A stretch of 64,000 bases of DNA from Methylophilus sp. 14 (GTDB lineage Bacteria; Pseudomonadota; Gammaproteobacteria; Burkholderiales; Methylophilaceae). The stretch lies in assembly GCF_015354345.1 (NCBI RefSeq), contig NZ_JADKYS010000002.1:124001-188000 (forward strand), written 5' to 3'. The position numbers and the translations under genes were made by a program. Of this stretch, positions 4,277-40,106 are shown piece by piece. The stretch's first letter is position 1; every line of letters begins with the position of its first letter. The notes under the pieces were generated by a model. The model searched no databases. It saw only the letters and a list, made by a program, of their open reading frames with translations, and was not told the origin of the DNA.

Positions 4277-6067
4277 ATGATGCGTACACATTATTGCGGT
4301 CACTTGAACCGCGAACATATTGGACAAACCGTGACACTGTGTGGCTGGGCCCATCGTCGTCGCGACCACGGGGGCGTGATTTTTATTGATTTGCGTGATC
4401 GCGAAGGTCTGGCGCAAATTGTGATTGACCCGGATACCAAAGACGCATTTGCGATTGCTGAAACCGTTCGCAGCGAGTTTGTGTTGCGCGTGGTCTGTAA
4501 AGTGCGTGCGCGTCCTGAAGGCACCGTGAATGCTAACTTGCCAACTGGCGAAGTCGAGATGCTGGCGACTGAAATTGAAGTGCTGAATGCTTCATTGACG
4601 CCACCATTTATGCTGGATGACGACAACCTGACCGAGACCGTGCGTCTGGAACATCGTTATATCGACCTGCGTCGTCCTGCCATGCAGAAAAACCTGATGT
4701 TGCGCTACAAAGTGGCTAAAAACCTGCGTGACTACCTGGATGACAACGGCTTTATCGAAGTGGAAACACCGATGCTGACACGCTCTACACCAGAAGGTGC
4801 GCGTGACTATCTGGTGCCATCCCGTGTGCACCACGGTATGTTCTTCGCCTTGCCACAATCTCCGCAATTGTTTAAACAGTTGCTGATGGTGTCCGGTTTT
4901 GATCGTTATTTCCAGATCACCAAATGCTTCCGTGACGAAGATTTGCGCGCGGACCGTCAGCCAGAATTCACCCAGGTCGATATTGAAACATCGTTCCTGG
5001 AAGAAAATGAAATCATGGACATCGTCGAAGAGATGATTCGCCGCATGCTGAAGAAAATTCAGGATGTCGACTTGCCGGCCAAATTCCCACGCATGCCTTT
5101 CGCTGAAGCCATGAACCGCTACGGTTCAGACAAGCCAGACATGCGCGTGACACTGGAAATCACAGAGCTCAGCGATGTGATGAAAGATGTCGATTTCAAA
5201 GTGTTTGCCGGTGCGGCCAATATGGCGGGTGGCCGCGTGGCTGCGATCCGCGTGCCTAACGGTGCGGCTATTAGCCGTTCAGAGATTGATGCTTACACTG
5301 AGTTTGTCAAAATTTACGGTGCCAAAGGTCTGGCGTATATCAAGATCAACGACATCACCAAACTGAACGAAGAAGGCCTGCAAAGCCCAATCGTGAAGAA
5401 TATTCACGTCAATGCGCTGCAAGCGATTATTGAGCGCACGGGCGCACAAAATGGCGACATCGTGTTCTTCGGTGCCGATAAAGCCAAAATCGTTAACGAA
5501 GCGCTGGGTGCCTTGCGTACCAAAGTCGGTCACGAAAAAGGCCATGTCGATGGTCGTCAGTGGGCGCCATTGTGGGTGGTGGATTTCCCGATGTTTGAAC
5601 ATGATGAAGAGGCTGACCGCTGGGTCGCCTTGCATCACCCGTTCACCGCACCTAAAGATGGCCATGAAGATTTGCTGGTCAGCAATCCTGGCGCATGCTT
5701 GTCTAAAGCTTATGACATGGTGCTCAACGGTTGGGAAGTGGGCGGCGGTTCAGTGCGTATCCACAAACAAGACATTCAGTCCAAAGTGTTTGATGCACTG
5801 AAAATCAGCAAGGAAGAAGCGCAAGAGAAGTTTGGCTTCTTGCTGGATGCGCTGCAGTACGGCGCGCCTCCGCACGGCGGCCTGGCTTTTGGTCTGGACC
5901 GTTTGGTGACCCTGATGACCGGTGCCGAGTCTATCCGTGACGTGATCGCTTTCCCGAAAACCCAGCGTGCGCAATGTCTGATGACCAATGCGCCAAACGA
6001 GGTGGACGAGAAACAACTGCGCGACTTGCATATCCGCGTGCGTCAGCAAAACGTCGCTGGCAACTAA
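4277..6067 (+). CDS. aspS: Aspartyl-tRNA synthetase
   Basis: A 596-residue class IIb aminoacyl-tRNA synthetase that charges tRNA-Asp with aspartate. An N-terminal OB-fold anticodon-binding domain (about 1-110) is followed by the catalytic core with class II motif 2 ([16 protein letters not shown]), the bacterial GAD insertion (about 300-420), and motif 3 (GLAFGLDRL) near the C-terminus. The length matches bacterial AspRS (about 590). Betaproteobacterial enzymes are often non-discriminating and act with GatCAB to make Asn-tRNA; the sequence here does not settle which kind this is. Start at 4277; an ATG directly behind it at 4280 is also possible. Confidence 0.95.
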
Positions 6068-32025: not shown

Positions 32026-33975
32026 ATGGCCAGACCCAAAGCAGATAAAAGTTTAGACAAAGAACTCGGAATTAACGAAGTCGAAACACACAAAGACCCC
32101 GCCACCCAGGCAATGGATGCCGAGGCACGCCGTACCCGCCTGAAAACCCTGATTGTTCTGGGTAAAGAACGTGGCTACCTGACCTACGCCGAAATTAACG
32201 ACCACCTGCCGGACGATGTACAAGACTCCGAGCAGATCGAGAGCATTATTGGCATGATCAACGACATGGGTATCCAGGTCTATGAAGAAGCGCCGGATGC
32301 CGAAGTGTTGCTGATGTCTGATGCGCCACCAGCAGTGACTGACGAAGATGCAGCAGAAGAAGCTGAGCAAGCCCTGGCCACGGTAGACTCCGAGTTCGGC
32401 CGCACGACAGACCCAGTGCGTATGTATATGCGCGAAATGGGGACGGTAGACCTGTTGACACGTGAAGGCGAAATCGAGATCGCCAAACGTATCGAAGATG
32501 GTCTCAAACACATGGTGCAGGCGATTGCCGCCTGTCCAACCACCATCGCCCAGTTGCTGGAGATGGTCGATAAAGTTGAAAAAGACGAGATGAGCGTCGA
32601 TGAACTGGTAGACGGTTTGATCGATAGCGACCTCGGCTTGGATGACGCCTTGGCCGTGGCTGACGCTGAAGAAGAGGAAGCGGCTGACGAAGAAGAGGAT
32701 GAAGACGACGAAGATGGCGATGCCAAAGCATCTGCCTTGTCCGCTGAAGCGCTGGCCAGACTCAAAGACGAGGTGTTGTCACGTTTCGCAGTCATTCGCG
32801 CGGCTAACACGCAAATGAACAGCATCCGCGAAGCCAAAGGCACCAATGATGCAGAATACAAAACCCTGCATCAACAAGTGCTGGACGAACTGACTGCGTT
32901 CCGCTTCTCAGCCAAGCAAGTAGAAGCCTTGTGTGACCAGGTGCGTAACATGGTCGAAGAAGTGCGCACGCATGAACGCAAAATCATGGATTTCTGCGTG
33001 GAAAAAGCAGGCATGCCGCGTCAGCAATTCATCAAGAGCTTTGTCGGCAACGAAATCAACCTGGAATGGTTGGATGGCGAACTGGCAGGTAATCCAGCGT
33101 ACGCCGAGCGTTTGAGCCGTTTCAGACACTCTATCCTTGACCAGCAAGAGCGCCTGCAAAACCTGCAAAACCGTGTGGGCTTGCCAATCAAAGAGCTGCG
33201 TGAAATCAACAAACAAATGACCACCGGTGAAGCCCGTGCCCGTCGCGCCAAACGCGAAATGATCGAGGCCAACCTGCGTCTGGTGATTTCTATCGCTAAA
33301 AAATACACCAATCGTGGCTTGCAGTTCCTCGACCTGATCCAGGAAGGCAACATCGGCCTGATGAAAGCCGTGGATAAGTTTGAATACCGCCGTGGTTACA
33401 AGTTTTCTACCTATGCAACATGGTGGATTCGCCAGGCCATCACGCGTTCGATCGCCGACCAGGCACGTACCATCCGTATCCCGGTACACATGATCGAAAC
33501 CATCAACAAGATGAACCGTATCAGCCGCCAGATTCTGCAAGAAACCGGCCTCGAACCTGATCCGGCCACCCTGGCTGAAAAAATGGAAATGCCGGAAGAA
33601 AAAATCCGCAAAATCCTCAAAATCAGCAAAGAGCCGATCTCAATGGAAACGCCGATTGGTGACGACGAAGACTCCCATTTGGGCGACTTTATCGAAGACA
33701 ACACCACACTGGCGCCTATGGACGCAGCGGTTTACGCCAGCCTGCGCGACGCTACCAGTGAAGTGCTGGAGTCGCTGACCCCGCGCGAAGCAAAAGTGCT
33801 GCGTATGCGTTTTGGTATCGAAATGAACACCGACCACACCCTCGAAGAAGTGGGCAAACAGTTTGACGTTACGCGTGAGCGTATCCGTCAGATTGAAGCA
33901 AAAGCACTGCGTAAACTGCGCCACCCAACGCGCTCCGAACGCCTGCGCAGCTTCTTAGAAAACGGACAAGATTAG
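32026..33975 (+). CDS. rpoD: RNA polymerase primary sigma factor RpoD (sigma-70)
   Basis: A 649-residue housekeeping sigma factor. Region 1.1 lies at about 30-95; an acidic low-complexity stretch ([19 protein letters not shown]) lies in the non-conserved region at about 220-240; region 2 contains the -10 reading helix ([20 protein letters not shown]); region 4.2 contains [20 protein letters not shown]. The ATG at 32026 is chosen because AGAGGTGG (32010-32017) precedes it at good spacing; an in-frame GTG four codons earlier is less likely. It ends 20 bp before the tRNA gene. Confidence 0.96.
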
Positions 33976-33977
33976 TT

Positions 33978-33983
33978 TATAAT
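33978..33983 (+). promoter_or_regulatory. Putative -10 box of the tRNA-Ile gene
   Basis: TATAAT immediately after the rpoD stop codon, 12 bp before the tRNA 5' end. The matching -35 position (33955-33960, TTAGAA) is inside rpoD and weak. Confidence 0.5.
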
Positions 33984-33995
33984 CGAACGCTTTTC

Positions 33996-34053
<58 letters not shown>

Positions 34054-34074
<21 letters not shown>

Positions 34075-34118
34075 TTTATAGAGAGACTCAAGGTTAACGC
34101 CTTGGGTCTTTTTTGTTT
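34054..34118 (+). repeat. tRNA 3'-end plus terminator, first copy of direct repeat (attachment site)
   Basis: These 65 bases, from the T loop of tRNA-Ile through its terminator, recur at 35886-35950 with only one or two changes. The first 27 bases (34054-34080) are identical. Direct repeats of a tRNA 3' end are the usual left and right borders of DNA inserted by site-specific recombination. Confidence 0.8.
34085..34114 (+). terminator. Rho-independent terminator of tRNA-Ile
   Basis: Stem GACTCAAGG/CCTTGGGTC around TTAACG, then six T residues. Close variants of the same terminator recur at 35917, 36687, 37635 and 44108. Confidence 0.88.
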
Positions 34119-34169
34119 TTGGGTGCTAATATATAACTGATTTACTAACCTTGAATAGTTGACCGAGCC

Positions 34170-34628
34170 ATGGAGAAATCAAGTATTAAATGTAAATGTG
34201 CAACACTAAATACTGTCGTCTTAGGTAAAACATCAAAATTACCCACAAAATATGCAGAATTTATTGCTTCAAAGCCACATCCTGAAGGATTTAAAATACT
34301 CCCGACTGGTGGTTCTTTCATCTCACTTTTTCGATGCGAGGTCTGTTCTCAGCATTGGCAAGCTGACGGAATGCAAGGGCGCATTAAACAACTTATAAGC
34401 TGGCCTTTGGTGTGTATAAAAGTTTCCGACTCAACAAATTGGAAAACCTTCAATGATTATTCTCTCAGGCAGCAACATTTTCCGGAAATTGTTAATGACG
34501 TTACTAGATTTCGAAGATGTGCAACAGAAAAATGTAATTCTCTTCCTGTCAAAGGCCTACATTATTGCGCAAACTGCGCCTGCTTAAATCGCTCAAAAGG
34601 TATTGCACTTCTACCTATTGATGAATGA
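34170..34628 (+). CDS. Cysteine-rich hypothetical protein (accessory region)
   Basis: A 152-residue protein with nine cysteines in clusters: C8/C10, C56/C59 (FRCEVCSQHW), C117/C122 and C133/C136/C138 (HYCANCAC). This suggests one or two zinc ribbons. No signal peptide is seen, so it is probably cytoplasmic. I do not recognise the family. It is the first gene of the AT-rich region that follows tRNA-Ile, and its base composition differs from rpoD upstream. In this setting a role as an immunity or accessory cargo protein is possible but unproven. Confidence 0.7.
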   Translation: MEKSSIKCKCATLNTVVLGKTSKLPTKYAEFIASKPHPEGFKILPTGGSFISLFRCEVCSQHWQADGMQGRIKQLISWPLVCIKVSDSTNWKTFNDYSLRQQHFPEIVNDVTRFRRCATEKCNSLPVKGLHYCANCACLNRSKGIALLPIDE

Positions 34629-34688
34629 AACCAAGACATGAGTGAGCGATCTGCACTCTCTAAACTAATGAAGATTAAATAGTCAAAT

Positions 34689-35321
34689 ATGAAAAAAATC
34701 TATCTTTTTGCAGTCATCGCAACATTCATGCTCAGTGGTTGTGCAACTGCATGGGTGGCTGGAGGAACAACATCCAGTGACCGTCTTGTATATGAAGATA
34801 CGATAGTGGCAATGGGTGAAACTAAGAAAAACAAAAACCTGGTTCTGCTTGGTGAAAAGAAAACCTATTTGATTACATACGGCGGGGAGAGACTCTCCGT
34901 CTTAGCCAACCTTGATCCCGAAAAGATAACTATAGATAATGATAAGGTAATTACTCTCGTTCTGACAAAAGAAGGTTTTTCGACGGAATTAAGTGTTAAA
35001 TATTCACCTGAAGCTTACTCTGAGCAAGAGAATAAGCTACTGACTTCAAAAGAGTATTATAAGAAAGCCTATCCTGATCGCCCCGGAAGCTTCTACACGG
35101 CAAGTGTCTCTATCAGAGGTCAGGTTTTTGATAAAAGTGACAAAGACTTGGCGGCATACAAGTTGAGGCAGGGGCGTAAGATCAGGGTTGAATCTGTAAC
35201 TTCAGATGCAAGTCCAAGACCGGATAAGTTCGTTACCGTGCCTATGGCAATAGCATTTGACGTTGTTACGTCACCTCTTCAATTGTTTATATTTTCTCTC
35301 CCTCAGAGTTCTAGCGAGTAG
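34689..35321 (+). CDS. Putative lipoprotein (accessory region)
   Basis: A 210-residue protein with a lipoprotein signal peptide, lipobox LSGC (Cys18). The mature part is mixed alpha/beta with a Lys-rich middle and a hydrophobic stretch near the C-terminus (FDVVTSPLQLFIFSLP). I do not recognise the family. It follows the Cys-rich gene by 60 bp on the same strand. The codon use is AT-rich. The tail repeat starts right after its stop. Confidence 0.7.
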   Translation: MKKIYLFAVIATFMLSGCATAWVAGGTTSSDRLVYEDTIVAMGETKKNKNLVLLGEKKTYLITYGGERLSVLANLDPEKITIDNDKVITLVLTKEGFSTELSVKYSPEAYSEQENKLLTSKEYYKKAYPDRPGSFYTASVSIRGQVFDKSDKDLAAYKLRQGRKIRVESVTSDASPRPDKFVTVPMAIAFDVVTSPLQLFIFSLPQSSSE

Positions 35322-35344
35322 ATGCCCGGAATCTGCTGCCTAAC

Positions 35345-35475
35345 CTGACGCATAGTCATACGCCTTGAGCCACAGGCCAACAAACGGGGGCTGGCTGATA
35401 CGACGGTGATCCTGAATGAGATCGTTGGCCGTTATGTTGGCTTGGTGTGTGAGCTGGGGTTTATTCAGATTTGAC
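35345..35475 (+). repeat. Tail repeat, copy A
   Basis: First of four copies of a roughly 110-bp sequence, sharing CTGGCTGATACGACG and GAGATCGTTGGCCGTTAT with the copies at 36530 and 37470. In this copy only, one frame stays open across the core and would encode a peptide containing RGLADTTVILNEIVGRYVG and ending GFIQI before a stop at 35472-35474. It may be the leftover 3' end of a lost gene. No start codon fits. Confidence 0.7.
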
Positions 35476-35479
35476 GCTG

Positions 35480-35812
35480 CTAGCCGTTTGTATCTGACTC
35501 ACTGATGGGTAACAGTATTTCTTCAAACGCTTGCCATGTAGAAGCAAGTTTGATTGCAACATCTGGTTTCATTCCTATGAGTGGTAGGTAAACAATCTCA
35601 TTGGTTGGCGAAATTGCATACATTTCCCCTCCACAGTTTGTCGCAAAGCCAAAATAACCTAGAGCATAGATAGGGAGTTGATATTCTTCATTAAATTTTA
35701 CCAATTCATTTTCTGGCCAGAATTCACAGATATATGGCGAAACTTCAAGCTCGCAAACTAAGGGCTTGTTCGATGAGTAGTAATCAAGAAGCTCTTTGGA
35801 TGGATTAGGCAT
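35480..35812 (-). CDS. SUKH (SMI1/KNR4) family immunity-like protein
   Basis: A 110-residue protein with the SUKH pattern: an N-terminal ligand segment, FWPENELVKFNEEY (W-x-x-x-E type motif), then ALGYFGFATNCGGEMYAIS, the conserved G-x-x-G-G-G/E region, and YLPLIGM. SUKH proteins neutralise nuclease and deaminase toxins delivered by contact-dependent systems in many bacteria; orphans are common. No toxin gene is adjacent. It is the only minus-strand gene between the first two tRNA-end repeats. ATG at 35812 is used; an in-frame TTG two codons upstream is less likely. Confidence 0.7.
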   Translation of the reverse strand: MPNPSKELLDYYSSNKPLVCELEVSPYICEFWPENELVKFNEEYQLPIYALGYFGFATNCGGEMYAISPTNEIVYLPLIGMKPDVAIKLASTWQAFEEILLPISESDTNG

Positions 35813-35885
35813 AGTCAACGAATTCTTAACGTATGTTTTATTCTAGCGTAACTTAAAATTTACTACATTAAAATGTCAATAAATC

Positions 35886-35950
35886 CGACTCACAGAGGGG
35901 CCACCATTTATAAAGAGACTCAAGGTTAACGCCTTGGGTCTTTTTTGTTT
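35886..35950 (+). repeat. Second copy of the tRNA-Ile 3' end plus terminator (attachment site)
   Basis: Near-identical to 34054-34118. It contains the tRNA 3' end with CCA and the terminator, but no 5' half, so it is not a functional tRNA. It closes a 1.83-kb segment that begins in the true tRNA gene. The bases after it (GAGGTGAGGTAAACTGG) recur after the terminator at 36687 too. Confidence 0.8.
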
Positions 35951-36021
35951 TGAGGTGAGGTAAACTGGTCGATATAAAAAGTAATTAGGCAGTCAATTTC
36001 TAATAATAAGGCTAGCAAGTT

Positions 36022-36363
36022 ATGGGAAATAAGATCACTCGAATTGGAAAGATTATTATGCTTATTTGCCCTTTGATTGTTTTAATCGGGGTGAGTGCAT
36101 GGATGTTTATGCCTGGGTGTCAAGCTGGTAGTATCGGACCTGCTTCAGGATGCATCCTGCTTGGTGTTAATCTAAATTGGTTTATCAATTTAACAATTTT
36201 GGCATTTATGGGAGCATTCTTATTTGTCCCACTTGGCCTAGTTATTTGGATTGTTGGAGTATTTCTATCACCTAAACGTGCGACTTTAAGCCAAGAGGCT
36301 ACCGATAAGAATTATAGTTTGCGGGCGTTAGAGGCTGAAAGTAATAAAAAGCCAGAGAAATAA
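36022..36363 (+). CDS. Small two-helix membrane protein (accessory region)
   Basis: A 113-residue protein with two strongly hydrophobic segments (about 10-30, IIMLICPLIVLIGVSAWMF, and about 53-80, WFINLTILAFMGAFLFVPLG), a short extracytoplasmic loop with two cysteines (MPGCQAGS, SGCILLG) and a polar C-terminal tail. I do not recognise the family. It is the single gene of the second repeat-bounded module (35951 to about 36720). Confidence 0.65.
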   Translation: MGNKITRIGKIIMLICPLIVLIGVSAWMFMPGCQAGSIGPASGCILLGVNLNWFINLTILAFMGAFLFVPLGLVIWIVGVFLSPKRATLSQEATDKNYSLRALEAESNKKPEK

Positions 36364-36521
36364 GAAGGAAGTCATACGGAGTTATCTAATTTAATTATTT
36401 GCTACGTAATACTCGGTCAATCATTGCTGTAAAAAAATCCTAACCCACCCCGAAACTCACCTACTCGCAGCCTCAAACCCTGGCCATAGCCGCCCGCTTC
36501 AGCCCACATCCTACCAATAGC

Positions 36522-36737
36522 CGCACGTCTTGAGCCATAGGCAGGCAAATAGGAGCTGGCTGATACGACGTCCCGGCTGAGATCGTTGGCCGTTATGTTG
36601 GCTTGGTGTAGGAAGTCAGATTTGTCCAGGCGGAAGGGATTAGCATTGATATTCAGATTCGATTGTTAGGTGGGCAGTTCTAGATGAGACTTTAGGTTAA
36701 CGCCTTGAGTCTTTTTTGTTTTGGAGTGAGTTAAACT
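36522..36737 (+). repeat. Tail repeat copy B with terminator
   Basis: The 401-bp gap between two genes is filled by this repeat. It contains the tail core (36553-36612), the GTTAGGTGGGCAGTT motif shared with copy C (36664-36678), and a variant of the tRNA terminator (36687 onward) followed by GTGAGTTAAACTGG as after the copy at 35917. The left part of the gap (36364-36521) is unassigned. Confidence 0.7.
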
Positions 36738-36764
36738 GGAGAGTGTAAATTAAAAAAGTGTTCA

Positions 36765-37433
36765 ATGAGTAAAAGTGACTATGATTCAAATCTTATGCTT
36801 AGACTACATCACATTATTGTTTTTCTTATCCTTCTAATTTCACCACTGATTGCTCTTTCGAGTGATAACTGGTGTTCATCAGATGGAGCAAATGGCCCAT
36901 ATAAATTCGAATGGAAGCCCAATAATCCAAAGGGAGCATCAGAGGGCACTTTGAAAATTACTGAACGCTCAACAGGTAAGATCTTCCAAGAAGTCTCAGG
37001 GTATGTAAGCGAAGAGAATTGGAGTCCGGATTTCTCTGATTTGAATTTTGATGGATGTCCGGATATAGGATGGATAGAGTTTAATGCTAGAGCATCAGCC
37101 AACGTAATCCTGCTTTATGATCGAGCCAAACAACGATTTGAGCACTCGGTGCTTTTATCAGAGCTCTTAGAGCCTACCGTTATAAGTAAAAAGAACAAAT
37201 GTCTGCAATCTACAATGGCAGGTAGAGGTAGTTCTGGAGGTAATGAAATTCATTGCTGGCGTGGTAATAAGTTAGTTCATGTTGAATCAACTTATTGGGA
37301 TTGGAATGAAAAGAAAGAATGCCAAGAGACTGTGGTTGAGCGATTAAAAAAGGGAAAGCTAAGAAAAGTATCTGTTAAGTGCGAGAAAATTGAACAAGAT
37401 GATTCTGTTTGGCAAGGAATGTATAAAAGATGA
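36765..37433 (+). CDS. Secreted hypothetical protein with VCBS/FG-GAP-like segment (accessory region)
   Basis: A 222-residue protein with an N-terminal signal peptide (hydrophobic HHIIVFLILLISPLIAL) and a mature domain that contains DLNFDGCPDIGWIEF, a calcium-loop-like pattern seen in FG-GAP/VCBS proteins and in XAC2610-type secreted proteins. Several cysteines suggest disulfides. The start may be the in-frame ATG at 36795, which places the signal peptide at the very N-terminus. It is the cargo of the third repeat-bounded module. Confidence 0.65.
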   Translation: MSKSDYDSNLMLRLHHIIVFLILLISPLIALSSDNWCSSDGANGPYKFEWKPNNPKGASEGTLKITERSTGKIFQEVSGYVSEENWSPDFSDLNFDGCPDIGWIEFNARASANVILLYDRAKQRFEHSVLLSELLEPTVISKKNKCLQSTMAGRGSSGGNEIHCWRGNKLVHVESTYWDWNEKKECQETVVERLKKGKLRKVSVKCEKIEQDDSVWQGMYKR

Positions 37434-37461
37434 AAGCTAAACTGCATCTAATTCACCACTA

Positions 37462-37667
37462 GTTGCACATCTTGAACAATAGCCATGCAATCAGGAGCTG
37501 GCTGATACGACGGTAATCCCGGCGAGATCGTTGGCCGTTATATTGGCTTGGTGTGGGGAGTGGGATTTGTACAGGCGGAAGCTGCTTGACGCTATTATCA
37601 GGCTCGAATGTTAGGTGGGCAGTTAAATAAGAGAGACTTGAGGTTAACGCCTTGGGTCTTTTTTGTT
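37462..37667 (+). repeat. Tail repeat copy C with terminator
   Basis: Contains the tail core (GAGCTGGCTGATACGACGG at 37495-37513, GAGATCGTTGGCCGTTAT), ACAGGCGGAAG, GTTAGGTGGGCAGTT (37610-37624) and another variant of the tRNA terminator (stem from 37635, T tract ending near 37670). The T tract touches the stop codon of the convergent gene at 37669. Confidence 0.72.
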
Positions 37668-37668
37668 T

Positions 37669-38073
37669 TTAAGAAGATTTCTCTTTATTTAGATATTGAG
37701 GCAATTGTGGGGAAGTGATTTCATTTTTCTTAATATGAATATCTAGCTCATACCCATTTTCTATGTAGCCAGCATTGAAGTGTAATTTTCTGCCTGAATC
37801 AAAACTTACATCTATTATGAAGTTTCCTTCACCCATTGGGAAGTATTTCACATTAATGCTTTTACCATTTTGAGGTGGGGGGACTATTAAATTGCCTGAT
37901 ATCTGACTTTCAAAATGCAACTCCAAGTTTTGAGGGGTTTCGCCTGATAAGTTTTTAATGTGGATAGAAACTGGCAAGGTGTAAAAGTAGAATATGCCAT
38001 ATAGGCAATAAGTTATCTTGATCACAATTGCAATTGATGCCGCTATGAGGGAGAGCTTCAAGACTTTTGTCAT
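37669..38073 (-). CDS. Membrane-anchored hypothetical protein (accessory region)
   Basis: A 134-residue protein with one N-terminal hydrophobic segment (about 7-33, signal anchor) and an extracytoplasmic beta-rich domain (VSIHIKNLSGETPQNLELHF and IIDVSFDSGRKLHFNAGY). I do not recognise the family. It is on the minus strand, convergent with the third module. Base composition is AT-rich like its neighbours. Confidence 0.6.
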   Translation of the reverse strand: MTKVLKLSLIAASIAIVIKITYCLYGIFYFYTLPVSIHIKNLSGETPQNLELHFESQISGNLIVPPPQNGKSINVKYFPMGEGNFIIDVSFDSGRKLHFNAGYIENGYELDIHIKKNEITSPQLPQYLNKEKSS

Positions 38074-38149
38074 TAATCTTGCCTATGATTATCAATTGGT
38101 AAGTAAATTTAAGTATCTCAGCTTTTCATCATTTCGACTATGGTTGAGC

Positions 38150-38255
38150 TTTTGAACTATTAGTAACTGGCTGATAGACGGTTACTCGACTGAGTTGTTG
38201 GCCGTGATGTCGACTTGGCGTAGAAGTTGGAATTTATCTAGACGGGGGATAGTAA
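38150..38255 (+). repeat. Tail repeat, copy D (degenerate)
   Basis: ACTGGCTGATAGACGG, GAGTTGTTGGCCGTGATGT and GACTTGGCGTAGAAGT match copies A-C with many changes. No terminator copy follows. It sits between two minus-strand genes. Confidence 0.55.
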
Positions 38256-38259
38256 AAGA

Positions 38260-38691
38260 TTAATTCTCAAACTCTTGTTCATATTTAAGCAGATCTAAAG
38301 CTCGAGATCGAACTAGTTGCATCCCTAAGTTTGTACCTGAAAGTTGATGAATGGTACCTTGTTGGGTTGAAACGATTTCTAATATTGTATTACCTTCAGC
38401 ATCTCTATATTTAAGCCATTGCTGTTGTGATTTACGCAAGGCTGCCTGTTGTTTTGGACTCAGCCTTTTCATCAACCGTTGATATACAACATTCAATTCG
38501 TTATCCCATTTAATCCGTGCTTGATTGGTAAGGTCACGCATATCGGCAGTAGAGACAACTGACTCATTGGCCATTTTTGCTTCATACCACGCATCTATTG
38601 GATGTTGAGTAGGTTTTATATCAACATCTGCATGCGTTGTTGCTGATAAGAAAGCAAAGACCGCAGCAAGTAAGAACTTTAATAAATTCAT
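38260..38691 (-). CDS. Lysozyme inhibitor LprI family protein (DUF1311)
   Basis: A 143-residue secreted protein: signal peptide about 1-21 (ending ATTHA), then an LprI N-terminal-type helical domain (ELNVVYQRLMKRLSPKQQAA and SQQQWLKYRDAEG), the diagnostic pattern of DUF1311. The mycobacterial LprI inhibits lysozyme; in proteobacteria the family is broad and its role uncertain. It marks the edge of the accessory region next to the cytochrome b561 genes. Confidence 0.78.
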   Translation of the reverse strand: MNLLKFLLAAVFAFLSATTHADVDIKPTQHPIDAWYEAKMANESVVSTADMRDLTNQARIKWDNELNVVYQRLMKRLSPKQQAALRKSQQQWLKYRDAEGNTILEIVSTQQGTIHQLSGTNLGMQLVRSRALDLLKYEQEFEN

Positions 38692-38793
38692 ATTCGTTAC
38701 TAATCCTTTTGTCGGTCGGTCTATGATCTGTTGCCCAAATGGCTAAATATTAGATCAGTTTAGCGCACTTATCTCTTAGAAGTGCCCGGTTTT

Positions 38794-39339
38794 TCAACCC
38801 CTGCCAAGCATTCTCAATAAGGTCAAGTCGCGGTCTAAAAAGTGGTGTTTTACTGCGCCTAAAATATGCAGGCTGATTGCAATGACCAACACATATCCCA
38901 CGCTGGTATGTGTGATATCGCCAACCTGAGACAAAAACTCGTTGTAAGGAATGGCTTCACCATTGGCAGCATGCTGTCCTGCAACAAGCTCCCATCCAAA
39001 CATACTTACGCCATGTCCGCTAAAGGATGAAAGCATAAAGCCGGAAACGGGCATCAAAATGGACCCAATGATCAAAACCCAATGAGTCATATGTGCCATG
39101 AATTGTTCTATTTTGGGGTATTGCCTGACGGGTGTTGGCCAGCCATTGATGAATCGCCACCAGGCTCTTAGCAGTACAAAGATGGCAATCAATACACCAA
39201 TGCTTTTGTGAATCGGATAGAGTGCAAATACTTCAAAATTCTTCATGTATAGGCCCAAACAGGTGAGGCCTATGATCGTCAATCCAACGATCCAATGTAG
39301 GAAGATTGTTACGCGACTGAACTTACGGGCTGAATCCAT
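38794..39339 (-). CDS. Cytochrome b561 family protein
   Basis: A 181-residue inner membrane protein with four transmembrane helices and the conserved heme-ligand histidines: FLHWIVG (about H15), YPIHKSIG (about H44), and two in the C-terminal half (THTSVGYVLVIAISLHILG). CybB-type proteins move electrons from quinol and, in E. coli, oxidise quinol with superoxide. The ATG at 39339 has a GAGAG ribosome binding site; an in-frame TTG lies one codon upstream. It is downstream of, and probably linked to, a second b561 gene. Confidence 0.85.
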   Translation of the reverse strand: MDSARKFSRVTIFLHWIVGLTIIGLTCLGLYMKNFEVFALYPIHKSIGVLIAIFVLLRAWWRFINGWPTPVRQYPKIEQFMAHMTHWVLIIGSILMPVSGFMLSSFSGHGVSMFGWELVAGQHAANGEAIPYNEFLSQVGDITHTSVGYVLVIAISLHILGAVKHHFLDRDLTLLRMLGRG

Positions 39340-39530
39340 CAAAATCTCTCTTATTTATTACCGACTAACACACGGTGACCGCTGTCATTTTATGATCATT
39401 TAAAGCAATAAATAACCACTGTGAGTTGGTCAGACTGTCTCAAGTGAGTTGACAATGATGTGATAGATGTCCCAATGAATCTGGGCGCTACATTAAAACC
39501 AGAATCCCATCCCGCTAAAAGTATTTCTAT

Positions 39531-40064
39531 TTATGCATGGTCCTCTATCAGGCCAAAAATTTGATGGTAGATGGCGGCGCTAATGTGGACAGCGAATAAG
39601 GGGTAAATCATCACCGACATTAAGTAGTGCAAGCCTAATATGGTTTGGTGAATGGGATGGGGTTTTTCGAGTAAAGCCGGTAATTCAAAGACATCGAAAA
39701 AGTGAAAGGTGTCACCGCTTGTGAGCAGCATCAATAGGCCTAAAAAGCATTGAGTAATGATGATGATGTATATGGATCGGTGCAGCGAAATAGCCAGCAG
39801 TTTTTGCCAGGGTTGGATGCTGTAAGAATGAATGGGGTTGGGGTTCAGGTGTCGCCATCTGAGCCTGGCCAGCATTAATATTAATAACAGCATGCCAAGG
39901 GAGGCATGTTGGGAGATCAATGCCAGCTTTTCAGGTATGGAAGTTTGCTCTGTGAGCTGGCTAGCCACCACGATGATGGTTAATAGCATTGCAACACTGC
40001 TCCAGTGCAAAACTCTGGCGATCAACCCATATTGTGTTGGCGAGTTTTTGAGATGAATGCTCAT
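39531..40064 (-). CDS. Cytochrome b561 family protein, second copy
   Basis: A 177-residue membrane protein with four hydrophobic segments and b561-like histidines (RVLHWSSVAMLL at about H20; SLHRSIYIII; TILGLHYLMS; AVHISAAIYHQ). It is clearly divergent from the copy at 38794 and lacks the usual HK pair there, so heme binding may differ. The ATG at 40064 has AAGGG at a good distance; an in-frame ATG at 40106 directly follows the stop of the upstream gene and would add 14 residues. Confidence 0.78.
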   Translation of the reverse strand: MSIHLKNSPTQYGLIARVLHWSSVAMLLTIIVVASQLTEQTSIPEKLALISQHASLGMLLLILMLARLRWRHLNPNPIHSYSIQPWQKLLAISLHRSIYIIIITQCFLGLLMLLTSGDTFHFFDVFELPALLEKPHPIHQTILGLHYLMSVMIYPLFAVHISAAIYHQIFGLIEDHA

Positions 40065-40106
40065 TGTGGCGGGCCCTTCAGATGATTGTTTTGCGCCAGA
40101 GAGCAT

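Follow-up and report, generated by a model that had tools for sequence, protein, structure and literature searches.

A stack of small accessory gene segments behind a tRNA gene of Methylophilus, probably built by repeated integration at the tRNA end

The array and its parts

An array of small gene segments lies behind a tRNA gene in the genome of Methylophilus sp. 14. It was analysed in a window of 64,000 nt, the whole stretch under study (G000:C8:124001-188000, G000 being the Methylophilus source genome), where the small segments extend to about position 38275 behind a tRNA gene with the anticodon CAT. This tRNA is presumably Ile2 and not Met, as we take from its GGCCC acceptor stem, and is called tRNA-Ile below. 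An earlier note on the same DNA had described three plus-strand segments ending in the same terminator. These are present, a tail of about 150 nt, conserved at the DNA level, stands at two of these junctions, and the observation of a cassette-like array is confirmed; the interpretation that the note gave to it is partly supported. The array is probably a tandem stack of short integrative elements, formed by successive site-specific insertion at an attachment site in the tRNA gene. Its parts are as follows; open reading frames (ORFs) are longest-ORF calls from a plain script, and L018 denotes the rpoD-side locus of G000.

33996-34074, plus strand: tRNA gene, anticodon CAT (printed as Met by ARAGORN), 3' of rpoD; anchor of the array (putative attB/attL)
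34085-34114, plus: terminator GACTCAAGG-TTAACG-CCTTGGGTC-T6
34170-34628, plus: segment 1 ORF, 152 aa, Cys-rich; no Pfam match
34689-35321, plus: segment 1 ORF, 210 aa, likely lipoprotein (LPAM_1, 15.1 bits, cut-off 20)
35351-35501, plus: tail copy 1 (nhmmer, L018 4352-4502, E=4e-36)
35480-35818, minus: ORF, 112 aa, weakly SMI1/KNR4 (SUKH)-like (Pfam, 17.0 bits, cut-off 25.4)
35886-35951, plus: tRNA 3'-end copy (tRNA positions 57-79) and terminator, attR-type junction
36022-36363, plus: segment 2 ORF, 113 aa, putative two membrane helices; no Pfam match above cut-off
36516-36664, plus: tail copy 2, proposed P arm (nhmmer, L018 5517-5665, E=2e-40)
36657-36717, plus: diverged tRNA 3'-end-like core (ATTCGATTGTTAGGTGGGCAGT) and terminator, class II junction
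36765-37433, plus: segment 3 ORF, 222 aa, FG-GAP-like at most (Pfam, E=0.066)
37460-37609, plus: tail copy 3 (nhmmer, L018 6461-6610, E=2e-39)
37604-37669, plus: diverged tRNA 3'-end-like core and terminator, class II junction
37669-38073, minus: segment 4 ORF, 134 aa
38155-38274, plus: tail copy 4, diverged (nhmmer, L018 7156-7275, E=3e-16)
38260-38691, minus: LprI-family protein (Pfam LprI, 62.9 bits)
38794-39342, minus: first cytochrome b561 gene, within the part absent from G016
39531-40106, minus: second cytochrome b561 gene; the conserved right flank begins here

Between positions 33900 and 38400 there are 126 pairs of exact 14-mer repeats, compared with none in each of 20 two-base-block shuffles, and the repeats are therefore beyond chance. 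A 72-nt family (D1) is found at 34054, 35886 (96%), 36657 (61%) and 37604 (63%), and the tail families (D2/D3) occupy about 35348-35475, 36513-36636, 37455-37581 and, partly, 38191-38248. The two tails noticed earlier are real, but a profile finds four (at 35351, 36516, 37460 and 38155). A shared leader, GTGAGGTAAACTGG or GTGAGTTAAACTGG, does stand after the terminators of the copies at 35886 and 36657, as had been reported. The G+C content of the array is low (40.1%, compared with 49.7% for the window), which was counted in favour of insertion. The 222- and 210-aa ORFs are longer than the longest ORF of all 300 mononucleotide shuffles (maximum 180 aa); those of 152, 134, 113 and 112 aa fall within the range of the shuffles.

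Comparison of relatives

The regions 3' of tRNA-Ile and of a tRNA-Lys gene were compared in 42 loci from 22 Methylophilus genomes, some of the loci being interrupted by contig ends (e.g. L080, L093, L095, L098 and L114). If the segments were cargo between stable flanks, related strains were expected to keep the flanks and differ in content, and this held in all five pair comparisons made. On the rpoD side, G002 and G003 have left flanks that are 95.8% identical as far as the final tRNA base, and right flanks that are 99.2% identical from positions 4518 and 610 respectively; between them, G002 carries a 3.7-kb insert of two genes with a tRNA copy at its end, and the G003 locus is nearly empty. 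In G005 and G010, identity of 97.5% continues to 2 nt past the tRNA, the right flank is 96.3% identical, the content differs, and the conserved right flank is preceded, at distances of about 60 and 20 nt, by pieces of the tRNA 3' end. At tRNA-Lys, the cargo DNA is shared neither by G002 and G003 (flanks 88.6 and 99.6% identical) nor by G005 and G010 (96.2 and 93.8%). The rpoD-side flanks of G000 and G016 are 96.5 and 87.6% identical with no common cargo DNA between them, and DNA identity of about 88% resumes at 39530 (L018 8531). The extent first given for the array is right for the small segments, but the region that varies between G000 and this nearest relative reaches about 39530. The locus of G009 is also nearly empty and consists of tRNA, terminator, tail, diverged core and flank.

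Content thus differs even where the rpoD-side flanks are about 96-99% identical. Breakpoints on the rpoD side favour the tRNA edge, and Mantel tests (36 of 62 copies used) revealed no sharp crossover within the tail. Linkage along the tail is weak, with r=0.14-0.30 for neighbouring blocks and -0.15 to 0.26 for blocks further apart. Such weak linkage would be expected if DNA taken up by the cell had been exchanged with the array by homologous recombination at its repeats, namely tails, terminators and tRNA 3' ends, a process that we take to be like that of minimal mobile elements. Tails and terminators do provide repeated homology, and in three cross-species matches the tail accompanies its downstream gene. 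However, most of the tail pairs listed by BLAST are only 70-85% alike, which makes them a poor substrate, and identity on the rpoD side stops at the tRNA edge (G002/G003) or 2 nt past it (G005/G010). Homologous exchange is considered an unlikely origin of the array.

tRNA remnants and the recombination core

The copy at 35886 consists of tRNA positions 57-79 and the terminator, with 69 of 72 nt identical to 34054-34125. What had been called a conserved flank is therefore a remnant of the tRNA: the repeats are real, but this one is made up of the final 23 nt of the tRNA gene and its terminator. At the two tail-bearing junctions of the window, a ATTCGATTGTTAGGTGGGCAGT-like word before the terminator is, when aligned by eye, a diverged counterpart of the tRNA T arm and acceptor. 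Among the tRNA 3'-end repeats of the window, the copy at 35886 is a true one and two others have diverged. In the relatives, intact 3' halves of both the tRNA-Ile and the tRNA-Lys type recur downstream of both tRNA genes. The array adjoins the 3' end of the rpoD-side tRNA, and likewise that of tRNA-Lys in the relatives and in G000. The earlier proposal of recombination between shared flanks is not supported in that form: the ends are attachment sites made of tRNA 3' ends, with an edge at the tRNA, and these point to the known tandem accretion at tRNA genes instead of arbitrary exchange between flanks.

Of the 20 rpoD-side loci that could be read (the 21st, L095, is cut), 10 have the terminator of the G000 type behind the tRNA, and G003 has another one behind the same tRNA despite its near-identical flank. 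Because the terminator of the same tRNA differs between relatives with near-identical flanks, it is perhaps brought by incoming elements and replaced by each new one. The leader was considered as a conserved P' arm, but this candidate is weak: at 49 junctions its ungapped identity is no better than background beyond about 30 nt from the terminator.

Both tRNAs have in common AGAGCAGCGGACT, three bases and TAATCCGTT, and the tRNA copies begin in or near the anticodon loop. The core TAATCCGTT (with at most one mismatch) was found in 31 copies, a count that leaves aside four longer copies flagged as tRNA bodies, and the anticodon triplet is kept to its left in 20 of them. Ten copies are Ile-Ile, eight are Lys-Lys, two are Ile-Lys chimeras and 11 have another left edge. 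Related cassettes are present behind both tRNA genes. A gene pair is common to G007 on the rpoD side and G008 at tRNA-Lys (94% and 89% identity). Two PEP-CTERM cassettes, both at tRNA-Lys (L014 10369-11566 in G000 and L100 509-1705 in G004), are 74.7% identical over 1.2 kb; their right ends both read TCATAATCCGTT and then continue as tRNA-Lys in G000 and as tRNA-Ile in G004. The switch between the two tRNAs falls directly after the shared anticodon-arm core, and to judge from its sequence it is what an exchange at TAATCCGTT would leave.

Distribution and orientation of the tail

A tail model was run on 120 Methylophilaceae genomes drawn from 24 genera with strict filters, the 87 genomes without a match being reported collectively and not singly. 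It was positive in 13 of 14 genomes of the same genus and in none of 106 other genomes of the family, in agreement with the suggestion that the system is genus-specific. Tails were also found by other searches in G017 and G021, and blastn did not find the tail in five of the 22 Methylophilus genomes. Further copies of tail and terminator, which the earlier note had proposed to look for, thus recur throughout the genome and the genus. When the 59 hits of the tail model were sorted by locus by hand, 51 lay behind the two tRNA genes, and all 51 ran in the same direction as the tRNA. No match to the tail was obtained by blastn in plasmid and phage collections, and no viral contig has its exact 22-nt core.

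A census of 52 loci, 49 of which took their orientation from a tRNA-Ile or tRNA-Lys locus or extend one (L015, L148 and L149 were kept as fetched), gave a single direction for 61 of 61 tails and for all 53 tRNA-Ile and 46 tRNA-Lys profile hits, which include the tRNA genes themselves and some cross-hits. The segments of at least 150 nt (n=75) have a median length of 1214 nt; this set, like the homology counts of cargo ORFs, includes one piece of chromosomal flank with nine ORFs (L018 7276-13104), delimited by a chance terminator match. Among the 55 segments of 150-2500 nt, 35 have one ORF of at least 70 aa, 14 have two and six have none. In segments up to 2.5 kb, 45 ORFs run along the tRNA and 18 opposite to it. 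Segments of up to 10 kb that carry integrases occur in the same arrays.

The arrangement in G005 gives the tail its place in the proposed scheme. There the tail leads straight into TAATTCGTT, after which come the 3' half of the tRNA and a terminator similar to the one in G003; this is the P-O-B' order of an attR site. From this arrangement the tail can be read as the P arm of one lineage of elements.

A further docking place seems to exist at tRNA-Arg(CCG) (L149 6016-7897, L151 5803-7016), where the region of G007 has tRNA-Lys 3' copies and one tail.

Recombinases and the integron

The earlier note had seen no integrase. This is true of the G000 array, but integrases or their remnants lie 3' of the same tRNA genes in nine relatives: integrases in G006, G008, G011, G014, G017, G019 and G021, and remnants in G005 and G016. 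The integrases of G006 and G011 at the rpoD-side tRNA and of G021 at tRNA-Lys are 48-72% identical, so related enzymes serve both sites. In all three, the nearest landmark to the left is a tail and that to the right a tRNA copy. The tail was nevertheless rejected as the left end of these three islands: the sequences directly after the tails are unlike, and the pairing of tail and integrase was therefore not counted. No transfer genes were recognized by Pfam among nine window proteins.

Three other candidates for the enzyme were also rejected. G017 has an island of about 22 kb at tRNA-Lys (L099 326 to L194 2193) with an integrase, a right-hand tRNA-Lys copy and what we take from the sequence to be relaxase-like genes; it is perhaps an integrative mobilizable element. 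It is not an autonomous tail element: the tRNA-Lys copy that closes it on the right has no tail, and the tail ends the next unit. A family of integrases of about 400 aa, present in at least 10 genomes, was considered as a conserved enzyme acting in trans, but in different Methylophilus species it sits instead at transfer-messenger RNA (tmRNA; L155, L163), tRNA-Leu (L158-L160, L164-L166) and tRNA-Met (L172, L173) genes. One short member is situated 3' of the rpoD-side tRNA in G014, and no tail was detected there. Serine recombinases gave 19 hits in 11 of 22 genomes, and the sole one in the examined regions is inside the G017 island.

Sedentary chromosomal integrons, and clusters of attC sites lacking integron-integrases (CALIN), form arrays in which most cassettes hold one gene and have a common site in a single orientation. 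The Methylophilus array resembles them in both respects, IntI is found above its curated cut-off in 20 of 22 Methylophilus genomes, and the tail consensus folds to a long hairpin in which 87% of cells are paired, compared with 32-48% for slid partners, a control that favours a structure derived from the consensus. The array differs in having neither the attC sites nor the IntI of such a system, and the real integron of G000 lies elsewhere: IntI is at C9:68313-69245, whereas the array is on C8, and its sedentary chromosomal integron (L121 7200-12720, C9) has at least eight attC-like repeats (CCTAACCCATC...CAAACGTTAG) with an ending, CAAACGTTAG, that is not that of the tail. The attC-end word CAAACGTTA, by which alone attC boxes were judged, is absent from L018. 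With ribosum scoring, RNAalifold gave -37.7 for the tail compared with -22.5 +/- 3.9 in 30 column shuffles, and -39.8 on a 35-copy alignment, but default scoring gave only -5.1 and -5.0 kcal/mol (35 copies), and covariation in the hairpin (0.162) was not above that of shuffles (0.161). The tail was thus rejected as an attC site and as a structured RNA, and an integron or CALIN with the tail as its attC is very improbable. An Rfam scan returned only the tRNA and one sub-threshold antisense hit.

The long rpoD-side array of G011 contains 11 CAAACGTTA words (L133 17318-19379, L134 69-4385, in coordinates oriented by the tRNA), as if it had taken in a block of integron cassettes.

Origin of the array

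In the explanation that we prefer, a tyrosine integrase acting at the core TAATCCGTT would have made the insertions, each of which would rebuild the tRNA 3' half with its terminator and displace older units outward. If the tail of about 150 nt is the P arm of one element lineage, then tail, tRNA-like core and terminator together would form an attP-like junction left between tandem units. The units of the window have no integrase and would resemble cis-mobilizable elements (CIMEs) that have decayed or that an integrase from elsewhere moves in trans.

Several observations weigh against this explanation. The tail-type junctions mostly have a diverged core that would not rebuild the tRNA, for which reason many of them may be inactive, and at the right flank of G000 itself the final att copy could not be discerned. 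Neither array of G000 gave a hit for a tyrosine or serine recombinase, and no recombinase could be tied to the tail, those of G006, G011 and G021 being several kb away from tails without common adjacent sequence. In 10 places of nine of the 42 loci, the tail stands 94-162 nt downstream of a terminator of the tRNA-Lys type; together with the three cross-species matches in which it goes with its downstream gene, these tails fit a simple P-arm model only if empty or eroded units are assumed. Two tails at the tRNA-Arg of G006 run opposite to that tRNA. A homologue of at least 40% identity in another array segment was found for just 10 of 159 cargo ORFs, and the genomes compared represent one per species, with no pair of strains among them. 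Lastly, eight of the 59 tail hits are outside the two tRNA loci, as would be expected if the tail were an independent repeat, like a miniature inverted-repeat transposable element, that inserts near tRNA genes by chance. This alternative is quite improbable, because the tails behind the two tRNA genes all share the direction of the tRNA, many adjoin a tRNA-like core, and in 33800-39000 no inverted repeats bracket the units of the window.

The diverged cores of the class II junctions are also consistent with decay. The units could be passive leftovers of large integrase-bearing tRNA islands, eroded and without mobility of their own, a view that accepts the same insertion step as the preferred explanation but sees the present units differently. 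The integrase remnants in G005 and G016, the short integrase in G014 and the integrase-bearing segments of up to 10 kb in the same arrays favour it. It does not readily account for the predominance of segments with exactly one or two ORFs, nor for the finding that the same tail accompanies different cargo across species. Decay of this kind is a real possibility, though somewhat less likely than not.

Insertion at the tRNA may also go together with something closer to capture, although we regard this as doubtful. Single genes would then move as small circles carrying an attP of about 230 nt (tail, tRNA-like core and terminator), and would be integrated, as in an integron but with a double-stranded site, at two tRNA platforms that share the core, with genes swapped between the platforms by a helper integrase acting in trans.

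Relation to known systems

Accretion at tRNA genes is a process known in kind, and already in the Methylophilaceae; the Methylophilus arrays are set apart by their small units, a genus-restricted end, a pool shared by two tRNAs and the absence of a recombinase found for the tail-type units. In Lake Washington Methylophilaceae, M. methylotrophus included, genomic islands are often located beside tRNA genes and have tyrosine recombinases, and site-specific recombination was suggested for the islands that distinguish closely related genomes (PMC4109929). The accessible part of that paper describes no single-gene arrays, repeated tRNA ends or tail, all of which the Methylophilus arrays have. Closer in kind is fGI-2 of 'Ca. 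Methylopumilus', where repeats of a tRNA-Lys(ctt) end bound variable islands of 330 bp-42 kb with 1-63 coding sequences, 79-80% of the proteins are of unknown function, and small insertions occur without bona fide integrons (PMC10872708). The likeness lies in tRNA-end repeats that bound additive variable islands in the same family. In contrast to the arrays described here, fGI-2 belongs to another genus and other tRNA genes and has a 20-nt repeat, and neither a tail of about 150 nt nor a switch from tRNA to tRNA is described in the part accessible (PMC10872708). Tycheposons, described in the same paper, are cargo elements of 4-200 kb anchored at tRNA genes and equipped with a tyrosine recombinase (PMC10872708); the window array has no recombinase hit, and its units are far smaller.

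CIMEs, which arise in the accretion of integrative conjugative and mobilizable elements, are units without an integrase that keep their att sites and are stacked at a single site by later integrations (PMC5704250). Unlike these, the Methylophilus units often hold one gene (median segment 1.2 kb), and in many genomes the array has no autonomous partner. Dehalococcoides islands at ssrA show many direct repeats of the 3' end of the RNA gene with islands in tandem, and 15 islands without an integration module might be CIMEs (PMC3146451). They depend on the serine recombinase DsiB and tmRNA, whereas in Methylophilus the integrases are of the tyrosine type and the two tRNAs have an anticodon arm in common. 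No description of the array or its tail was found in searches of the open-licence PMC literature on Methylophilus with genomic islands and tRNA or with integrons, which is no proof that none exists.

These arrays suggest that a genome needs no integron to accumulate accessory genes, many of unknown function, in ones and twos 3' of its tRNA genes, and that a common pool of cassettes can serve two tRNA genes whose anticodon arms are the same. Near-identical genomes differ wholly in content at the array site. Mobility driven by a helper, if shown, would add a second way in which integron-like cassette arrays can form.

Cargo genes

The labels first given to two window genes are weak: SUKH for the 112-aa ORF falls short of the Pfam cut-off, and VCBS-like for the 222-aa ORF comes down to the FG-GAP match. 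The idea that immunity genes are stockpiled here gains no support from so weak a SUKH match. PADLOC at E 0.01 gave no hit for the six window cargo ORFs and four others. The 152-aa ORF had no BLASTP match among the 42 loci and only a weak match of 38 aa in one other genome among 369 genomes of the class, its own included; the 210-aa ORF had none in the 21 other Methylophilus genomes. The 222-aa ORF matched only itself in the class sample, and its relatives within the genus all lie outside the arrays: distant ones (32-36%) in G002 and G011, and a very weak match in G017. Two window genes recur in G011: the 134-aa ORF as a DNA match of 186 nt (73%) in the rpoD-side array (L135), and the LprI gene as a 72% DNA match of about 500 nt, from inside the tail through the gene, in the tRNA-Lys array (L104).

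A scan of 64 cargo proteins (62 of the 63 small-segment ORFs and two of G002) found eight PEP-CTERM proteins among the 25 commonest families, which are those reported. Other cargo matches single families, e.g. MFS, HIUase and HxlR, and some proteins match candidate defence or restriction models. Cargo genes that are PEP-CTERM-like by their ends terminate within a tRNA copy at L014 9863 and 11558, L077 2605 and L100 1697 (coordinates oriented by the tRNA), their stop codon being the TAA of TAATCC in the tRNA anticodon arm.

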